Assembly: GCF_001310085.1 (NCBI RefSeq)
Contig: NZ_CP012643.1
Coordinates: 2,835,501 to 2,899,500 of the forward strand
Direction of reading: 5' to 3'
Length of the DNA: 64,000 bases
Source: Rufibacter tibetensis
Lineage (GTDB): Bacteria > Bacteroidota > Bacteroidia > Cytophagales > Hymenobacteraceae
Shown here: in pieces, positions 503-8,965 of the stretch
How positions within the stretch are numbered: position 1 is the first letter of the stretch
Layout: each line of letters opens with the position of its first letter
Position numbers and translations under genes: made by a program
The notes under the pieces: generated by a model
Database searches by the model: none
Told to the model about the DNA's origin: nothing
The model's input: only the letters and a program-made list of their open reading frames with translations

Positions 503-835
503 ATGAAAATGAATCTAACTTCTCTTAAACGCCTTTCCTGGTCTTTGCTGCTGGGTGGGGCACTTATAAGTGGCATCACAGCCTGTAGCACCGGCACCAG
601 CGAGGGCCAGGTAAACGTGGAGGAAAGCGACTTTAAAGACAAAAGCCCCACTGAACACAACGCACAGGGGCTTTCAGATGAAACCCAGGACCCCTTGAAC
701 AACACAGGCTCTGACTCTTCAAACCAAGCCATTTATGATCGGCAGGAAAACAAGGTAAGAGAGCGTAATACCGGAACTTCTAACCAGGGATTTGGCGGGG
801 CGGCCGAAAGAAACTCTGATAAAAAGAATAACTAA
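503..835 (+). CDS. Small hypothetical lipoprotein
   Basis: Encodes 110 residues. The N-terminus has a basic start, a hydrophobic stretch and a lipobox-like SGITAC ending in Cys28, so the product is probably a lipoprotein anchored in the outer or inner membrane. The mature part is hydrophilic and low in complexity, rich in Asp, Glu, Asn, Ser and Gly, and ends in an Asn/Lys-rich tail; it is likely unstructured. No domain family is recognisable and no function is proposed. The start ATG at 503 gives the signal peptide directly. A good hairpin with a T-rich tail lies 17 bases after the stop, so the gene seems to be transcribed alone. Confidence 0.7.
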   Translation: MKMNLTSLKRLSWSLLLGGALISGITACSTGTSEGQVNVEESDFKDKSPTEHNAQGLSDETQDPLNNTGSDSSNQAIYDRQENKVRERNTGTSNQGFGGAAERNSDKKNN

Positions 836-851
836 AATCTCATATCCACAG

Positions 852-881
852 AAAAGCCTGCCCCTAATGAGGCAGGCTTTT
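852..881. terminator. Bidirectional intrinsic terminator
   Basis: AAAAGCCTGCC (852-862) pairs perfectly with GGCAGGCTTTT (871-881) around an 8-base loop, followed by a T-rich tail on the plus strand and preceded by A residues. It lies between the converging small lipoprotein gene and the second BtuG-like gene and can serve both. Confidence 0.85.
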
Positions 882-919
882 CTGTTTTCAGCCCCTTTTC
901 AGGAAAATGGTGCCAAAGC

Positions 920-1963
920 TTACCGGAACCCAAATGCCTTGGGAACTCCCTGCACCTCAAAAGAATCTACTACCGCCCCGTTGCTCCGGTACCGGATCAC
1001 CCACCCATTAGAACCGTTGGCTTGCGCACGGCCAGTGTATAATAGGCCGTCTGCCGGGTCTTGACCCAGCGCCTCAACTCTGCGGGGGATGATAGGCAGG
1101 GCAGGCAATGACAGCGCGTTGATGTCCATGGAGTACACCCCATCATGGGCAAAGAAAATTCGGTTTTTGGAGCCGCTCAAGGTGAGGCCATGCGGCTGAA
1201 GCGCGGAGTTAGAGAACTCAAACTCCCTTGGCTGGCTTCTGAGTGCCGACGGGTTGATGCGCACCAACCGGCCTTTGGTGCTACCATCGGCTTTGCCGCC
1301 ACATAAGACCCACAGAATGCCCGAGGCGTCTACCACCATGCTGTTAGGGTTGTCTCCTACGGTAAGGGTGGTGTCAATAATAAACGTGGTGGTGTTGAGC
1401 ACATTTACTTTGTCTCTACCCTCGTTGGCCACAAAGAGCCGGCTTCCCACCAGCGCCATGGCTCCGGGGTTAGGGCCAACCTTCATGTTTTTGGTGATGG
1501 CATTGGTACCCAGGTTTACTTGTACCACCCTACCAGAATCAGGAGACGTAATCCAACTGCTTATATAGGCTGTTCTGCTGGTGCCCGTTATTAATCTTCT
1601 GGGAGAAGTAATGCCTGAGATGGTTCCGGCCGAGGTAAAGGTTCGGGAGGCAAGGACCTCTATGGTGTCTTTGCTGGTAATAAGATACGTTCTCTCCAAA
1701 GCCGTTGCCATAGACACCAGGTTCCCGTCCAGGGCCCGATTGTTAGCTTTCTGAAACAAATCTGCCTCTACGTTTCCGGTAGCCCGGTCATAGTAACTCA
1801 CGCTACCGCTTGAGGTACCGGTTTCACCCATAGTGGAGATAAGAACGCCCGTCTCAAATACCGGGAGCAGTTCTTTTTCTTCCTCCTGACAAGAAGTGGC
1901 AAAAAGCAAGGCCGCACCTAAGAGACCGTGTAGCGCTTGTTTGAAAAGAGGGAAACGTTTCAT
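920..1963 (-). CDS. BtuG-like beta-propeller lipoprotein, copy 2
   Basis: Encodes 347 residues. The signal sequence ends in the lipobox FATSC (Cys25), so it is a lipoprotein, probably surface exposed. The mature part is built from YVTN/YncE-type beta-propeller repeats, seen in segments such as SRLFVANEGRDKVNVLNTTT and NPNSMVVDASGILWVLCGG, and resembles the DUF5074 group. Bacteroides BtuG, a surface lipoprotein that binds vitamin B12 with extreme affinity and caps BtuB, is a propeller of this kind. The gene is the last of three under a cobalamin riboswitch, and its C-terminal third aligns by eye with the neighbouring copy (shared WVL-GG, NGW-RY and a final F-FR). A role in B12 capture is inferred from family and context. 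Separate ligand preference of the two copies is unknown. Confidence 0.8.
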   Translation of the reverse strand: MKRFPLFKQALHGLLGAALLFATSCQEEEKELLPVFETGVLISTMGETGTSSGSVSYYDRATGNVEADLFQKANNRALDGNLVSMATALERTYLITSKDTIEVLASRTFTSAGTISGITSPRRLITGTSRTAYISSWITSPDSGRVVQVNLGTNAITKNMKVGPNPGAMALVGSRLFVANEGRDKVNVLNTTTFIIDTTLTVGDNPNSMVVDASGILWVLCGGKADGSTKGRLVRINPSALRSQPREFEFSNSALQPHGLTLSGSKNRIFFAHDGVYSMDINALSLPALPIIPRRVEALGQDPADGLLYTGRAQANGSNGWVIRYRSNGAVVDSFEVQGVPKAFGFR

Positions 1964-2040
1964 CTTGCTAAGGTAGAAAATTAGAGGAGACGGAGAACAG
2001 GTAGGAGATAAGTGCTACACAGAAGTCCATAGCTTAAAAC

Positions 2041-2078
2041 GCAGGGAAGCCAGCCCCAAATGGAACTGGCTTCTCTGC
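2041..2078 (-). terminator. Hairpin between the two BtuG-like genes
   Basis: GCAGGGAAGCCAG (2041-2053) pairs with CTGGCTTCTCTGC (2066-2078) with one mismatch. On the minus strand it is followed by GTTTTAAG. It lies between the two propeller genes, so it may terminate or attenuate transcription and lower expression of the distal copy. Confidence 0.65.
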
Positions 2079-2115
2079 GTATAAGCTTAGTTTGCCAAAA
2101 AGACCCCAGAAATGA

Positions 2116-3171
2116 CTATCTGAAAGAAAATCCGTTAGGCAAAATTCTCACTTGGAAAGAGTCAACCGGCGTGCCAGTGGTCTGGTACCGAACGGCCCAG
2201 CCATTGGATGTATAACCGCCTACTCCCAGGTACAGGAGGTTGGTTTCAGGGTCAATGCCCAAGCCATACGGACTACGGTTGATGATAGCCGTAGTAGGGA
2301 CAGTTGACGCGGAAGTTGCCATTGCATATACCTTGTTGTTATAGGAATAGTAAAGTGTGTTCTTGGCTCCGTTAATGGTCAGTTGGCCAGCACCGCTAGT
2401 ACCTACCGGGAAGTTATAGGTGGTAAGGGCATTATTATTGGCCGGATCAATCTTGATCAAAGCACCAGGAGTGCTGTAGCCTCCTCTTAACACCCAAATC
2501 TTGTTGTTAGCATCCAGAACCAGGTGCTTAGGTGCTTCGCCTACCAGAATGGTACTTTCCACCTGGTCTGTTGCAGTGTTGATCACAGAGATAGTATTGC
2601 TACCACTGTTGGCCACATACAGCTTGTTGTTGTAGATAAGCAATCCTTCTGGCAACAGGCCCACATTGATGGTTTTAGTTACTGTGTTGGTAGCAAGGTC
2701 CAGAACAGATACCCGTCCGGTACCCAGGTAGCCAGAGAAGGTGTATCCTACATACTCAGTCACGTAGGCTTTGGAAGAGTTTAAGGCAGCAATGTACCGA
2801 GGTATCTTTAAGCCATTGATTACCCCAACAGAGGCAAACGAATAAGCATCTACCACTTCAATCTTCTCGCTGGCATTTACTGCAATATAGGCTTTGTCCC
2901 CAATGAAAGTCAGAGACTGGGCTGCATCTCCCAACGGGCGGTTATTCACTTTGCTGAATAAATCTGGCGTGAGGTCTTTCGATTCAGGGGAGAGGAAGCT
3001 TACCTCAGCAGTAGGTGTTCCAAACTGCCCTTCGTTCAAAATGAACACGCCATGCTCATAGGCTCCTTTGGGTTCTGTATTGTCATCAGTAGATTCACAG
3101 GAAGAGGCAAACATAGTGCTGCTTCCTAACAAGATGTACAGGAGGTACTTTTTAAAAGAATTAGTTTTCAT
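2116..3171 (-). CDS. BtuG-like beta-propeller lipoprotein, copy 1
   Basis: Encodes 351 residues from the ATG at 3169-3171, MKTNSFKKYLLYILLG. This start places the lipobox FASSC correctly; a longer upstream reading would run into the receptor gene and spoil the signal peptide. Repeated segments such as NKLYVANSGSNTISVINTA and APKHLVLDANNKIWVLRGG mark a YVTN/DUF5074-type beta-propeller, the fold of the B12-binding surface lipoprotein BtuG of Bacteroides. It begins 32 bases after the stop of the BtuB-type receptor, consistent with an operon and with a BtuB-BtuG pedal-bin complex in the outer membrane. B12 binding is inferred from family plus riboswitch, not seen directly. Confidence 0.85.
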   Translation of the reverse strand: MKTNSFKKYLLYILLGSSTMFASSCESTDDNTEPKGAYEHGVFILNEGQFGTPTAEVSFLSPESKDLTPDLFSKVNNRPLGDAAQSLTFIGDKAYIAVNASEKIEVVDAYSFASVGVINGLKIPRYIAALNSSKAYVTEYVGYTFSGYLGTGRVSVLDLATNTVTKTINVGLLPEGLLIYNNKLYVANSGSNTISVINTATDQVESTILVGEAPKHLVLDANNKIWVLRGGYSTPGALIKIDPANNNALTTYNFPVGTSGAGQLTINGAKNTLYYSYNNKVYAMATSASTVPTTAIINRSPYGLGIDPETNLLYLGVGGYTSNGWAVRYQTTGTPVDSFQVRILPNGFSFR

Positions 3172-3203
3172 AGGTAAATAAAGGTGAATGTAAATGGAAA
3201 TAG

Positions 3204-5132
3204 TTAAGGTTGGGGCGCCCATTTGAGAGAAAGGGACAGCCTGAAGTTTCTGGGTGGCATGGCCCGGTACGCCATGGTTTGGTACACCGTATTGGTGAGG
3301 TTTTGCACCTGGGCCATAAGTTGCGTTTCAAAAGAATGCCACGTAAATGTCTTGCCCACACTGGCGTTTATCAGCGTGTAAGCCGGTAACCAATTGTTGT
3401 TGTCATTGTCTGTGAAGCGGCGGCCGGTGAACGTGGCGTCAGTGCTCAGCCACCAGTTTTTAAAGCGTGCTTCAAACCAACCAGCCACCTTGTGCTTAGG
3501 CACGTAGAACAGCTGGCGCTCTTGCAATATGGCTTGGGTGTTAGGAAGTTTCTGCTGTGAGATGGTGTACGCGTAGGCCACACCTCCAAACAAAGACCAA
3601 TTTGCATCAAAGGCAAACTGCCACCTGCTGTCGACCTCAACTCCGTGCCCGCGCACGTGCTGGAGGTTGACCGGTTCTGAGAAAGGTCCCGCCTGGGAAG
3701 GTTGCCACTGAATCCAGTCCTTCACCTGCAGTGCATACGCCGTCAGTTCTGAGGTGCCGGTTACGTTGCCGTTTTTATAGACATGTGCCAAACCACTTTC
3801 ATATCCCCAACCACTCTCGGGTTGTAACCCCGGATTACCGCCTGGCCGCCAGAAGCGGTCATTCAAAGTAGGCACCCGGTAACTGCGTGATACGTTGGCT
3901 TTGGCAGTAAACGTATTTCCGGCAAACTCTGTGATTATGTAGTTAGCTCCCAATGTTGGGGTGAGCGGCGGATTGAACCCTTGCACCCAGGCCTGGCGCA
4001 AGTTCAAGCTTATTTGTAGTTCCGGCAACGGATCATACCGTAGCCAGCTGTAGGTAGAGAAACGAGTCTCGTCTACTTTTCCGCCGTATCCGCCCACATT
4101 GGCTTTAAAGAGTTGGCCTTCTTCACCCAATTGCAAGAGCAGGTTGGGCAGTAATTGCCGCTCATGTTCTACCTGGCTTTGGTAGGTGTTGACGGTGGAA
4201 AGGGAAAGAACACCGTCGTCCCGGTAATTCAGAACGTCGTTGAAATACGCTCCCCTAACCGTGGTGCTGCCACCGGCTACCTGGCCCTGCCATTCGGCCA
4301 TGAGCCGCAGGTTTTCGTCGTTCTGCTGAGCGTGGGTGTTCGCGCTGCCCATGGAAGGCTGTATCTGCCGATGCGTCTTCACATACCAGCCCCGTACCGA
4401 AAGCCTTTGCGCCTGGCCAAGCTTATAATGCACTTCCTGAGCCAAACTGGTCTGGGAGAAAGCGGCATTCTGCTGAGTCTCCCGCGGTGCCCCAAAAGCG
4501 GCGATGTTCTCAAACTTGAAATCATTCTGGGAGGCTGAACGGGTAAAAGAGGAGGTGAGGGCGAGTCTCCCGTTGGAGAAAGTACCAGTAGCCGCTGAAC
4601 GTCTGTGCCCGAAGCTACCTATTTCCTGTTGTACCTGTATTTGTTGCTGAGGGGCAAAGGATACCGGGTTTTCCAGAAGAACAGCTCCCCCCACAGCCCC
4701 GCTGCCGTGTAAGGCACCGCTTGGTCCGTGTTGAAGGCTCACCTGAGTATTGGGTGGGGGAGGTAATAACGCAAAATCTGACATGCCCAAGGTAGGCAGG
4801 GCAATGTTGAAGCCGTTCCAGAGCACGGCCGTATGGCTGGACGAGGTTCCCCTGAAGGCCACCGTAGCTGTCATGCCATTACCATAGCTTTTGAAGTACA
4901 GCGGACTGCGCTGCTGGAGCACTTCAGAAAGCGTAATGCCGGGCTGCCGTTGCAGAAGCAGAGTATCAATCCTCTGGACCCGGGCTCCTGAGACGTAGCG
5001 GGTGTATCTTGGCGCCGAAATGGTGACAGGCGTCAGTTGCACGGTGTCCTGCACCTGGGCATAACTCACTTGCAGAGACAAAATCTCTAAGGCAACAGAA
5101 GCTAGCGCAAACAAAAAAAGACGACGTACCAT
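3204..5132 (-). CDS. btuB: BtuB-type TonB-dependent cobalamin receptor
   Basis: Encodes 642 residues from the ATG at 5130-5132; a TTG 15 bases upstream in frame would add a poor leader. A signal peptide ends near SYAQ. It is followed by a TonB-box-like segment (about residues 29-40), a plug domain (about 45-150, with GTSSSHTAVLWNGFNI and GPSGALHGSGAVGGAVLLENP) and a beta-barrel rich in aromatic and amphipathic strands to the C-terminus. The family imports ligands across the outer membrane using TonB energy; a length of 640 matches BtuB better than large SusC-type receptors. The cobalamin riboswitch just upstream and the two BtuG-like genes downstream point to vitamin B12 as ligand. No periplasmic or inner-membrane BtuFCD genes are in the window. 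Confidence 0.9.
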   Translation of the reverse strand: MVRRLFLFALASVALEILSLQVSYAQVQDTVQLTPVTISAPRYTRYVSGARVQRIDTLLLQRQPGITLSEVLQQRSPLYFKSYGNGMTATVAFRGTSSSHTAVLWNGFNIALPTLGMSDFALLPPPPNTQVSLQHGPSGALHGSGAVGGAVLLENPVSFAPQQQIQVQQEIGSFGHRRSAATGTFSNGRLALTSSFTRSASQNDFKFENIAAFGAPRETQQNAAFSQTSLAQEVHYKLGQAQRLSVRGWYVKTHRQIQPSMGSANTHAQQNDENLRLMAEWQGQVAGGSTTVRGAYFNDVLNYRDDGVLSLSTVNTYQSQVEHERQLLPNLLLQLGEEGQLFKANVGGYGGKVDETRFSTYSWLRYDPLPELQISLNLRQAWVQGFNPPLTPTLGANYIITEFAGNTFTAKANVSRSYRVPTLNDRFWRPGGNPGLQPESGWGYESGLAHVYKNGNVTGTSELTAYALQVKDWIQWQPSQAGPFSEPVNLQHVRGHGVEVDSRWQFAFDANWSLFGGVAYAYTISQQKLPNTQAILQERQLFYVPKHKVAGWFEARFKNWWLSTDATFTGRRFTDNDNNNWLPAYTLINASVGKTFTWHSFETQLMAQVQNLTNTVYQTMAYRAMPPRNFRLSLSLKWAPQP

Positions 5133-5249
5133 ATCCTCGGCGTACAAAGCAGAGGAGACTAAAAAGGAAGAAGTACACGAAAACGCCAGCCACTGAGGGC
5201 CACCATGTCCTTGCTGCTTTTTTTCCCGAAAGCCTCCAGGTGAATGTTA

Positions 5250-5432
5250 GACGTTGGCAGGTCTCCTGGCTCTCTTCATCTGCCTGGCCTTCCCATCCAG
5301 CAAAGCGGACAGTGGCGTGTGGAAGGCAGAATTTCTCTGAAGATAACAGTTGCGGGTACAGCTCAGGTATTACACCTGATTCCCTTTTAAGACATCATGG
5401 GCAGAAAACCCAGGCTGTCACCAATATCGGGG
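5250..5432 (-). promoter_or_regulatory. Cobalamin (adenosylcobalamin-type) riboswitch
   Basis: Read on the minus strand, the core motifs come in the known order. An AAAAGGGAA segment (about 5381-5391) with GGTGTAATACC is followed by CTGTACCCGCAACTGT (about 5346-5364), GCCACTGTCC (about 5307-5316), a GATGGGAAGGC segment, and finally the B12 box AGCCAGGAGACCTGCC (about 5256-5271). A TTGG near 5421-5424 can close P1 with CCAA just after the B12 box. It lies about 120 bases before the BtuB start, in the same direction, so B12 should repress the three-gene operon. I could not identify the expression platform with confidence. No clear terminator is visible between the aptamer and the ATG, which leaves translational control possible. 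Confidence 0.93.
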
Positions 5433-5915
5433 GCAAAGGTACGGGAAGTTTGAATAGCAGCCTACATCGGCCTAGAAAAATCGCAACAAACTGCTTTTAA
5501 GTTGTTTTCCTGTAAACGGCTTAGAAATAGACGAGTGTAGCATTAGTGATGGCTATCCAAACCTGGGGTAGGTTTATAAAGCAGGGTTGGAGATGACGAT
5601 TACCACTGCAACGAATCATGCGAAAATGTCCTGTAAAGCGTAACTAATTACCAGAAAAGGTATAGGTTTATGAGCTAGGTAGAGCACCCAAAAGATAGAA
5701 AAGCCTTATTTACTAATTTAACTGAGAGCCAGTGAATTAATATTTTCCTCCTCAGCATATAACGCATTTTTTAGCGTTATTTAAACCAAAGCAGGCTAAA
5801 AACAGAAAGCAGAACATACAGAAGTGGTGGCTTGACACGCAACTTATTTAGGTTGGCTGTAGTTTTTAGCACTGTATTTGCAACCAGCTTGCCTAGTTTC
5901 CACACTCCTTTTTAC
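5433..5915. other. AT-rich divergent intergenic region
   Basis: About 480 bases between the riboswitch and the DUF4919 gene. It should hold the leftward promoter of the B12 operon and the rightward promoter of the DUF4919 gene. A weak rightward candidate is TTGG (5853-5856) with TGTATTTG (5873-5880); its position implies that translation begins at 5916 and not further upstream. No gene, RNA or long repeat was recognised. Confidence 0.4.
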
Positions 5916-6575
5916 ATGAAAAGAATTTTCCTTTTAAGCACGTTATGCCTGGGTTTATTGCTCAGTTCCCAGGCACAGATGGTTTCTAAAATTGATTATA
6001 CCGCCATCAAGGCGGCGGTGACTTCTTCCAAGTCCAAGATGTATTATCCTGCATTGCTAAAGCGCTATCACGCTAATGACTCTAGACTTACCTTGGACGA
6101 GTACAAGCATCTGTACTATGGCTGGACCACGCAACCGGGCTATAACCCGTACAAACCCAACGACCAGTCTGATGCTTTAAATGAGATGCTGCTGTATGAG
6201 CGCTTCCCGGAGATTATCACCACCGGTAAGAAGCTGTTGGCCACAGACCCGTTCAACCTGGATGTGATGTACCTCATGCACATGGCTTATGGCGAGTTGA
6301 ATAAGAAGGGGGAAAGTCAGATGTGGCTCACCAAGTTTGAAGGTTTGATGGCGGCCATAAAAGCCAGCGGCAACGGCCGAAGCAAAGAAACAGCCGTAGT
6401 GCTTAACGCTCCGCGTGACGAGTATATGTTTTTGACAGTGGTAGGGCTTCGGCAGAAGGGGCGCCCGCAGTTGGTAGACAATAAGTATGATTTGGTGAAT
6501 CTGCAGACACCTAACAAATTAAACCTAACTGAACTTTACTTCAACATCCAGAAAGCGGTAGAGAAGAAACGGTAA
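5916..6575 (+). CDS. DUF4919 family secreted protein
   Basis: Encodes 219 residues from ATG 5916 (MKRIFLLSTLCLGLLLSSQAQ), a clean signal peptide cleaved after the AQ. An in-frame start at 5832 would bury this signal behind 28 extra residues and is unlikely. The mature region has the pattern YYPALLKRYHANDSRLTLDE followed by HLYYG, which I associate with the Bacteroidota family DUF4919. The fold is probably mainly helical and TPR-like, with repeated short helices between residues 80 and 140. It is expected to be periplasmic or secreted. No function is known for the family. It stands alone between an AT-rich upstream region and a strong terminator. Confidence 0.75.
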   Translation: MKRIFLLSTLCLGLLLSSQAQMVSKIDYTAIKAAVTSSKSKMYYPALLKRYHANDSRLTLDEYKHLYYGWTTQPGYNPYKPNDQSDALNEMLLYERFPEIITTGKKLLATDPFNLDVMYLMHMAYGELNKKGESQMWLTKFEGLMAAIKASGNGRSKETAVVLNAPRDEYMFLTVVGLRQKGRPQLVDNKYDLVNLQTPNKLNLTELYFNIQKAVEKKR

Positions 6576-6603
6576 GTCCGATCATCTAAAATAAATCAAT
6601 GGG

Positions 6604-6641
6604 AAGGGTAGCCAGGAGGAATTAATCCCTTGGCTACCCTT
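6604..6641 (+). terminator. Intrinsic terminator after the DUF4919 gene
   Basis: AAGGGTAGCCA (6604-6614) pairs perfectly with TGGCTACCCTT (6631-6641), followed by TTTCTTTTT. Confidence 0.88.
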
Positions 6642-6685
6642 TTTCTTTTTGCTTTCTTGGCTGCCCTTCAAACTATACAGACTTT

Positions 6686-7135
6686 ATGAAAAATATACTT
6701 CCCGTGGTTCTGCTTCTCTCTGTGCTTTTCGCCTCTTGCCAGGCAAACGGAGATAAGCCGACAGATGGGGCTTCGGCTAAGAAAGAAATTGACGTTGTGT
6801 TGTGTGAGTTTTCATCCACAGATTCTGCCACGGCTATGTCCAGGCTACAAGGCAAATGGGAATTGCGTGGCATCAAAACCAACTACATGGGCGCTCAGGA
6901 AGACGAATTTCTGACAGGAGATAAAATCGGCGAAGCCAAATCCCTTACCTTCTTTGAAAACGGCGAGTATGAAGAGCACGTGAATGGCAGGCTACAGGGT
7001 GAAAGGCAATCTTTCAAAATTGTAGGGCAAAGCCTGCCTCCGGTAGGTTATCAGTTCTGGTTCTGCGACGAGAATACCTTGGTCATTAACAACGTCATCG
7101 CCGATGGTGCCACCGAGGTTTTCATTCGTCAATAA
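6686..7135 (+). CDS. Lipocalin-like small lipoprotein
   Basis: Encodes 149 residues. The signal sequence ends in the lipobox LFASC (Cys19). After a short linker comes LQGKWELRGIKTNYMG (about residues 54-69), the typical opening strand of Bacteroidota lipocalin-like domains, followed by alternating strands with FFENGEYEEHVNGR and FKIVG. The size fits a single small beta-barrel. Such proteins are anchored to a membrane and may bind small hydrophobic ligands, but no ligand can be deduced here. It lies 11 bases before the DNA glycosylase gene in the same direction, so the two may share a transcript although no functional link is evident. Confidence 0.65.
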   Translation: MKNILPVVLLLSVLFASCQANGDKPTDGASAKKEIDVVLCEFSSTDSATAMSRLQGKWELRGIKTNYMGAQEDEFLTGDKIGEAKSLTFFENGEYEEHVNGRLQGERQSFKIVGQSLPPVGYQFWFCDENTLVINNVIADGATEVFIRQ

Positions 7136-7146
7136 TCCCTGCGGCT

Positions 7147-7773
7147 ATGTCCCTTCAGCAGAAACTTACCCAAGATTTCTTTACTCGTCCAGACTCAGTT
7201 ACCATTGCCCGTGACTTGATTGGAAAACACTTCTTTTCCAGCTTTGACGGGGTGCTCACCGGGGGTATGATAGTAGAGACCGAGGCGTACTCAGGTCTTA
7301 ACGATGCTGCCTGCCATGCGCACCTTGGGCGGCGCACCAAACGCACCCAGGTCATGTATGAACAGGGGGGCATTGCCTATGTGTACCTCATCTACGGCAT
7401 TCACGCTTTGTTCAACATTGTGACCAATGCAGAAGGCATTGCCGATGCCGTGCTCATTAGGGCCATTGAGCCGACAGAAGGGATTGAGGAAATGCAGCTC
7501 CGCCGGGGATTGACCAAAGTAGAGCCGCGCCTTACTGCTGGTCCTGGGCTGGTTACTCAAGCCCTGGGTATTTCCACCCAACACAACGGCACAGACGTCA
7601 ACGGAAATGAGATTTGGTTTGAAGACCGAGGCGTGCTCGTTCCCGAGGCCCAAATTGTGGCAGGCCCCAGAGTTGGGGTTGCTTATGCCGGGGCAGATGC
7701 CCTGTTGCCGTGGCGGTTCTCTCTGAAAGGCAGCCGTTGGGTGAGTAAAGCCAATCCAAAGTATACGCTATAA
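7147..7773 (+). CDS. mpg: DNA-3-methyladenine glycosylase (AAG/MPG family)
   Basis: Encodes 208 residues, normal for the bacterial AAG/MPG family. This monofunctional base-excision enzyme cuts the N-glycosidic bond of alkylated purines such as 3-methyladenine and hypoxanthine. The catalytic segment VETEAY is at residues 43-48, with the general-base glutamate in the second E position. The DNA-intercalating and hydrophobic core motif YVYLIYGIH follows, and RRTKRTQVMY lies between them. The gene starts 11 bases after the lipocalin-like gene and ends one base before the convergent methyltransferase gene, with no room for a terminator between them. Family assignment is secure. Confidence 0.93.
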   Translation: MSLQQKLTQDFFTRPDSVTIARDLIGKHFFSSFDGVLTGGMIVETEAYSGLNDAACHAHLGRRTKRTQVMYEQGGIAYVYLIYGIHALFNIVTNAEGIADAVLIRAIEPTEGIEEMQLRRGLTKVEPRLTAGPGLVTQALGISTQHNGTDVNGNEIWFEDRGVLVPEAQIVAGPRVGVAYAGADALLPWRFSLKGSRWVSKANPKYTL

Positions 7774-7774
7774 T

Positions 7775-8965
7775 CTAGCTGATAACTTTCTTGCAGAGGA
7801 GCAAAATAGGTTTGTTATGCAGGTCTGTGGTGGCAAATAAGTAGTCTTCTCCGCCTTCCTTCAGTTTTATCTTTTCCCGTAACTGCGCCACCGTAAGCGG
7901 ATAATTTCGGACGGTAATGTTGGCCTTCTTTTGGGGTAAGAGTTGTTGAAGCTCTTTTACGTTGGCCTTCGGGTTACTCGTAATTACAAAAATACGGCCC
8001 GGAAACGCCTCCACTAATTCACTGGAAGTATAGAGATGGCTGTTGCGGTTTAATTTGTGTACCCTGTACCGTTCAGATAGCCATTTGTAGGCGCCTGCTT
8101 TCAGTAAGGCCGTGTTGGGTTCATACAAATACCGTTGTGGCTCAGAGAAAGTGACCTGCGCATTCTCCTCTTCCTCCTTGGTGAAAGTAAGAGGCTCTTC
8201 CTCCTTTTCAGGTCTTAAATGGACGGCGGTTATCTGGGGAGCACCAACAGCATCGGGTTTAAGTAAGTATAGCACCTCTTTGCACTCGTTTTGAACAGCA
8301 ATCACCCACACCTGCGCTACATGATTCAACTTCTGAAGCGCTAGATCAATGTCCAGCATGGGGGCAGTCTTCAACAGAACAGCCTTACTTTTCTGAAAAA
8401 GCAACGGAAGCAGGCCTATTACATCAGGCTCGCAGTCCTGCAGTAAGTGCACTCGTTCCTGGCTTTGTCCGCGCCGGGCCGGGTCCAAGAAAAGCACATC
8501 TACGGGGTGTTCTAGTGAACGCAGGAACGTCTCTGCCTCTGTAGCCTCTACGGTAATGTTTTTGACTTCTAGCTGGGTGAAGTTGAATGCGACAATTCTG
8601 GCTAGTTCTTCCTGTTGCTCTACATACGTTACGTGCCTGAAATGCCGGGCAAAGTGGTAGGCATCTACCCCAAAGCCACCGGTTAAATCAACCAATGTTT
8701 CCCCGGAAACCAATCCTGCTTTATAGGCTGCAGTCAATTGAGAAGAACTCTGCTCTACTGAGAGGTTGGCGGGGAAAAGCAAATCCAGGTTAGATGCCCA
8801 GGAAGGAATCTTGCTTTTAGCCTTTTGCCTAGCCCTGATTTGTTGCGCTAACTTAGGCACATCTAACTGAGGCCACTTCTTAGCTTGTAAGACTAAGTGC
8901 GCGGGATCAGCGGTAAGGTTTTCTTCCAGAAAAGTACGTTCAGCAGGGGAGAGCGGGAGAGGCAT
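7775..8965 (-). CDS. THUMP-like domain SAM-dependent methyltransferase
   Basis: Encodes 396 residues. The central class I methyltransferase fold shows motif I LVDLTGGFGVDAYHF (about 91-105), the acidic post-I loop (YVEQQEE) and DPARR at about 161-165 in the motif IV position. An N-terminal helical region (1-85) and a C-terminal segment from about 300 match the Bacteroidota proteins annotated with a THUMP-like C-terminal domain, exemplified by Porphyromonas PG_1098. Such proteins are thought to methylate RNA, but the exact substrate is not established and I do not propose one. It is convergent with the DNA glycosylase gene and monocistronic in appearance. Confidence 0.8.
   Translation of the reverse strand: MPLPLSPAERTFLEENLTADPAHLVLQAKKWPQLDVPKLAQQIRARQKAKSKIPSWASNLDLLFPANLSVEQSSSQLTAAYKAGLVSGETLVDLTGGFGVDAYHFARHFRHVTYVEQQEELARIVAFNFTQLEVKNITVEATEAETFLRSLEHPVDVLFLDPARRGQSQERVHLLQDCEPDVIGLLPLLFQKSKAVLLKTAPMLDIDLALQKLNHVAQVWVIAVQNECKEVLYLLKPDAVGAPQITAVHLRPEKEEEPLTFTKEEEENAQVTFSEPQRYLYEPNTALLKAGAYKWLSERYRVHKLNRNSHLYTSSELVEAFPGRIFVITSNPKANVKELQQLLPQKKANITVRNYPLTVAQLREKIKLKEGGEDYLFATTDLHNKPILLLCKKVIS

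Follow-up and report, generated by a model that had tools for sequence, protein, structure and literature searches.

The locus of Rufibacter tibetensis described here, which lies on the minus strand of a 64,000-nucleotide stretch of DNA (the window), is an ordinary riboswitch-BtuB-BtuG operon accompanied by a genus-restricted, separately placed BtuG paralogue. In the account that we consider the probable one, if by no means a secure one, the riboswitch operon would comprise BtuB and BtuG-A and end at the hairpin behind BtuG-A, while BtuG-B, flanked by that hairpin and by a convergent gene, would be transcribed from its own promoter and form a surface lipoprotein that retained the BtuG shell but no longer binds corrin in the BtuG manner. 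BtuG-A would serve BtuB as a lid that captures B12, a role established for the BtuG proteins of gut Bacteroides. In transcript order, the system consists of a box, the riboswitch, BtuB, BtuG-A, a hairpin, a second box, BtuG-B and a second hairpin, and the feature coordinates given in the preliminary description were correct:

5434..5441, minus strand: probable -7 element in the promoter of the riboswitch operon, TACCTTTG (octamer recurrence and -7 consensus)
5254..5424, minus strand: cobalamin riboswitch aptamer (RF00174, 92.3 bits)
3204..5132, minus strand: BtuB-type TonB-dependent receptor, 642 aa from the ATG (PF07715 and PF00593; 8p97_A)
2116..3171, minus strand: BtuG-A, BtuG of the surface-lipoprotein type, 351 aa, Cys25 (DUF5074, 8p97_B)
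2039..2080, minus strand: terminator-like hairpin between BtuG-A and BtuG-B (folding, recurrence in relatives)
1968..1975, minus strand: probable -7 element of BtuG-B's own promoter, TACCTTAG, 4 nt before the ATG (conservation)
920..1963, minus strand: BtuG-B, lipoprotein of BtuG fold, 347 aa, Cys25, in which most conserved polar positions are missing (DUF5074, 8p97_B)
848..885, minus strand: hairpin after BtuG-B, common to the convergent gene (also behind BtuG-B in the other seven genomes that carry it)
503..835, plus strand: convergent small lipoprotein-like gene, the boundary of the locus and outside the system (no match in the Pfam search)

Frames resembling the convergent gene are located directly downstream of BtuG-A in genomes lacking BtuG-B. 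In the Rfam search, the hairpin behind BtuG-B (847-933) additionally matched Thr_leader below threshold on either strand (31.8 and 36.6 bits, gathering score 55), probably only because the stem-loop is strong.

As had been proposed, a cobalamin riboswitch heads the operon, its match to RF00174 far exceeding the gathering score (92.3 bits against 31.5; E 1.3e-21). Within the genus group, defined as 16 Rufibacter genomes including Sabulibacter ruber, a cobalamin riboswitch above the cut-off resides upstream of BtuB in all 16 genomes, and in all of them the octamer TACCTTTG is found just before or at the 5' end of the aptamer. A second riboswitch serving BtuG-B was ruled out, as the RF00174 match is the only one and the remaining Rfam matches stay below their gathering scores. 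One genome without BtuG-B (G011) carries an extra, sub-threshold cobalamin riboswitch match (G011:C29:2626-2740, 25.3 bits). The identification of the following gene as a BtuB-type receptor was likewise borne out: its plug and barrel are of the TonB-dependent type and come closest to those of BtuB receptors, the best solved relative being 8p97_A (E 4.8e-64), which is the receptor in the BtuB3G3 entry of B. theta. The best NCBIfam model, TIGR01779 TonB-B12, yielded 75.9 bits, far under its cut-off of 599.7; the receptor remains below the NCBIfam BtuB/TonB-B12 cut-offs (599.7 and 836 bits) because these models are equivalogs. BtuB occupies a single place in each of the 16 genomes. All 16 also encode proteins with a B12-binding domain above the cut-off, which, judged by their lengths, may be methionine synthase and methylmalonyl-CoA mutase, and in none of the 16 did a search for CobQ reach the cut-off, so that no correlation with BtuG-B was seen. 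B12 proteins without CobQ are consistent with a dependence on uptake, whether BtuG-B is present or absent.

Both lipoproteins are BtuG-like propellers, as the preliminary description had claimed. BtuG-A matches DUF5074 (E 5.3e-25) and the BtuG chain 8p97_B (E 1.7e-35), BtuG-B matches the same two (E 1.2e-10 and 2.5e-21), and the predicted structures of both display the BtuG fold. At 34% identity (E 3e-66) the two are paralogues, which rules out a chance resemblance. BtuG-A has DUF5074, the BtuG fold and a lipobox with acidic residues, all beside btuB, and BtuG-B shares the first two of these features. Assignment of BtuG-B as a BtuK was rejected, since it is not closer to BtuK1 than to BtuG. 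One BtuG per BtuB, taken earlier as the described arrangement, holds for gut strains, for which the eLife 2018 study gives 106 btuG homologues in 106 of 109 btuB operons. Similar to B. theta BtuB2G2 and BtuB3G3, the Rufibacter locus combines a riboswitch, a TonB-dependent receptor and an adjoining seven-bladed propeller lipoprotein, and BtuG-A agrees with them completely in both fold and polar positions; unlike in these systems, the gene order is BtuB followed by BtuG, no other uptake gene lies between riboswitch and hairpin, and a second BtuG-fold gene is present behind the hairpin. B12 loci with more than a single propeller lipoprotein have a precedent in B. theta operon 1, which, by the published account, encodes BtuK1, BtuK2 and BtuGH, and BtuK1 has a propeller fold. 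In the same account BtuK1 binds and BtuK2 does not, a parallel for BtuG-A and BtuG-B.

BtuG-A is present in all 16 genomes of the genus group (60-81% identity to that of R. tibetensis), while BtuG-B occurs in eight of them, always directly behind BtuG-A. The Pfam model alone missed BtuG-B in a search of its own genome, and the counts were therefore made with protein and profile queries. With BtuG-B as the query, at least 185 of 200 family genomes (16 of them the genus group) gave a match, and among the matches listed only the eight BtuG-B-bearing genomes had two places; a common tandem feature of the family was thereby ruled out, again among the matches listed. Profiles revealed a second, weak and partial place on a different contig in one Hymenobacter genome (G055). 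Across 390 genomes of the order, BtuG-B orthologues scored 590-635 bits with the BtuG-B profile (589-635 over all profile scores) and others among the matches listed at most 282. A second BtuG-like frame was found nearby in at least six of 80 named loci, some of which are short contigs where a second copy may be cut off, and all six fall among the ten Rufibacter/Sabulibacter loci. Elsewhere in the order, among the matches listed for 56 multi-match genomes, adjacent DUF5074 pairs occur in G226 and G216 and neighbouring DUF5074 genes in G380 and G324; thus, tandem pairs arise independently but rarely. In a tree of 63 rows, BtuG-B forms a single clade (support 100, stem 1.17), as does BtuG-A (support 91), and a single origin of BtuG-B is likely. 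Without the long tandem rows, BtuG-A and BtuG-B group with a support of 52.6, and together with the other Hymenobacteraceae with 91.5, and a tree placing BtuG-B outside BtuG-A and the Hymenobacteraceae was not rejected (p-AU 0.469). These trees tie BtuG-B weakly to the BtuG-A of Rufibacter, and it might have arisen from one duplication, either within the Rufibacter line or in its close ancestry.

BtuG-B differs from BtuG-A in its conserved polar positions. In a first alignment of 16 BtuG-A, eight BtuG-B and 17 other sequences, 78 columns were at least 85% conserved outside BtuG-B, 46 of which BtuG-B retained (in at least six of eight) and 23 of which it lost (at most two of eight); against a broader reference of 41 sequences, 31 of 54 such columns were kept and 18 lost. 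The lost positions include, in BtuG-A numbering, E47, G48, G81, D82, Q85, N99, S101, R125, Y126, K134, Y136, T138, E175, N267, Y302 and G303. As read from DSSP, the lost positions are mostly located at or beside strand ends in the BtuG-A model, several of them opening the first strand of a blade; this placement, together with the conservation, suggests that the conserved polar positions line the corrin pocket. Among the columns at least 90% conserved in the 41-sequence reference (16 polar and 23 other), the eight BtuG-B proteins retain 3-8 polar and 17-19 other columns, and those kept in at least four of the eight amount to 4/16 polar as against 18/23 other columns (Fisher p 0.0025). R. tibetensis BtuG-A has 16/16 of the polar positions and BtuG-B 6/16, the latter lacking most of the set conserved in the family.

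Controls of similar identity to the reference set (B. finegoldii BtuG2-type 0.30 and Persicobacter 0.32, compared to 0.30-0.34 for BtuG-B) keep the polar columns, 15 polar and 20 other in the former and 15 and 18 in the latter, and the loss in BtuG-B is therefore selective and not a matter of overall divergence. Two distant BtuGs (L099 and L134) keep 15 polar columns each and 19 or 21 others, and the lowest polar count within the reference is 14/16. These four controls belong to the reference themselves, and in a repeated, leave-one-out comparison BtuG-B kept 54-65% of the conserved columns, B. finegoldii 74%, Persicobacter 82%, the second copy of G226 63% and that of G216 50%. The G226 and G216 pairs resemble that of Rufibacter in having two DUF5074-type genes side by side and differ in belonging to different families; the first copy of G226 keeps 15 polar and 17 other columns and its second copy 12/16 polar and 15 other, and the G216 paralogue, with 7/16, is the sole similar case of polar loss. 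Residues of BtuG2 named in the text of the 2023 BtuG2 paper are W194, Y239, W272, Y316 and Y335. The position of Y316 holds a tyrosine in 16/16 BtuG-A and 0/8 BtuG-B, and position 335 an aromatic residue in the same proportions; W194, Y239 and W272 are conserved neither in BtuG-A nor in most other BtuGs, so that this part of the published pocket list fails to separate the two.

Different corrinoid preferences of the two copies had been suggested earlier, and BtuG-B might accordingly be a second, retuned binder with its pocket remodelled for other corrinoids. It shares fold and neighbourhood with BtuG-A, some invariant residues are specific to BtuG-B, and the examples of BtuJ and BtuK1 demonstrate that proteins with different residues can bind B12: BtuJ1 and BtuJ2 do so at 23% identity with partly different residues, and a changed pocket can therefore still bind. 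However, within BtuG-B the lost columns have an entropy of 1.20, above the average of 0.96 for all ungapped columns and far from the 0.23 of kept columns, which indicates that these positions are free, unlike a new conserved site. There would also be little need for a second specificity, since the 2023 paper states that BtuG2 makes no contact with the lower ligand and for this reason already accepts many, if not all, corrinoids. Polar positions that are mostly gone and unconstrained argue for loss rather than retuning, and we regard a retuned binder as unlikely.

Relaxed positions might also be expected of a decaying, functionless duplicate, as might a patchy presence, which requires at least four gains or losses on the BtuB plus BtuG-A tree (57 of 500 shuffles were equally low), and a dN about 1.5 to 2 times that of BtuG-A. 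Against decay, the frame is intact in 8/8 genomes, the lipobox cysteine and acidic tail are retained in all eight, the structural columns are kept, the promoter-like box described below is conserved, and dN/dS is 0.13-0.30 (BtuG-A, 0.06-0.24; 28 pairs in either case, nearly all of them saturated for dS). Decay thus appears very improbable, and BtuG-B would rather be kept by selection in some species while being absent in others.

The hairpin between the two copies, noted before, was confirmed: the region 2030-2085 folds with -33.6 kcal/mol (z -7.75), and 0 of 200 shuffles were as stable. In all eight BtuG-B-bearing genomes a hairpin of -24.8 to -41.2 kcal/mol begins 28 to 39 nt past the BtuG-A stop codon. 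In seven of the eight genomes without BtuG-B, a hairpin begins 23-36 nt past this stop within the 90 nt searched; G011, the exception, has a strong hairpin at +132, and in some of these genomes the hairpin and that shared with the convergent gene may be identical. A terminator scan was overall at chance (7 matches versus 6.1), with the hairpin between the copies as its strongest match (12 pairs). This hairpin looks like the end of the riboswitch operon. Four nucleotides before the ATG of BtuG-B resides a box, TACCTTAG in seven genomes and TACCTTCG in one, at identical spacing in all eight. Upstream of BtuG-B, identity averages 78% from -22 to -1 and 27% from -80 to -23 (at most 37% in 2000 shuffles). 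PMC6847099 describes the F. johnsoniae -7 element as TAHHTTTG, positioned 4-5 nt from the start site, and accordingly a BtuG-B transcript would start at or beside its AUG; leaderless genes are a minority in that species by the same source. The box has A or C at the seventh base, where the F. johnsoniae consensus has a nearly invariant T. Genome-wide, the box occurred 1-10 nt before any ATG 79 times, no excess over the reversed control (72), and a sigma-70 promoter scan gave 4 sites compared to 4.6 in shuffles, as expected for Bacteroidota. From its conservation, the box is probably BtuG-B's own promoter.

Hairpin and box together speak, at the level of sequence, against the earlier claim that both copies, and hence BtuG-B along with btuB, are under the riboswitch, and they agree with the different expression levels also suggested. 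It might be argued that BtuG-B belongs to the riboswitch operon as its distal gene and that read-through past a leaky hairpin provides a lower level of expression; BtuG-B lies on the same strand at 152-176 nt from BtuG-A in eight genomes (BtuB and BtuG-A are separated by 21-38 nt in 16), and the U-tracts behind the hairpins are short (3-7 T per 12 positions). In contrast, the conserved box is fixed 4 nt before BtuG-B and none was seen before BtuG-A in the genomes compared, and a hairpin of the same kind closes the operon in genomes lacking BtuG-B. Read-through is thus a rather improbable explanation, and separate transcription of BtuG-B is preferred.

Having lost most conserved residues of the presumed binding site and probably being under its own switch, BtuG-B is unlikely to act just as a second catcher of B12, and we infer that it probably does not bind B12. 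As to its role, our best guess is a non-capturing cell-surface partner, of BtuB or of another ligand. Highly speculatively, it might be a B12-blind dummy lid, independent of the riboswitch, that caps BtuB instead of BtuG-A and closes or gates the receptor; if true, it could guard against phages or bacteriocins or act when B12 is plentiful, and as a pseudo-binding-protein that regulates a TonB-dependent transporter it would represent a novel type of component. In the literature searched, we came across neither a tandem BtuG pair from other than gut strains nor a BtuG with a lost site. BtuG-B beside a normal BtuG and a single BtuB offers a ready comparison for telling corrin-holding from BtuB-holding residues, and a DUF5074 protein encoded beside btuB should not be annotated as B12-binding before its conserved polar positions have been checked.

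Further loci were observed along the way. The independent tandem DUF5074 pair of G226 (L146, G226:C32:24000-38000, at 5401-7583) lies near a BtuB-like gene; in the 14 kb read around that of G216 (L147, G216:C9:292000-306000, at 5803-8052), no frame resembling BtuB turned up. A 73 kb Bacteroides finegoldii record labelled as a plasmid (L054, NZ_OY725920.1, 18982-31935) carries a complete locus for B12 uptake, with genes for DUF4465 and PKD-type proteins, a BtuG, a TonB receptor and an ABC transporter.
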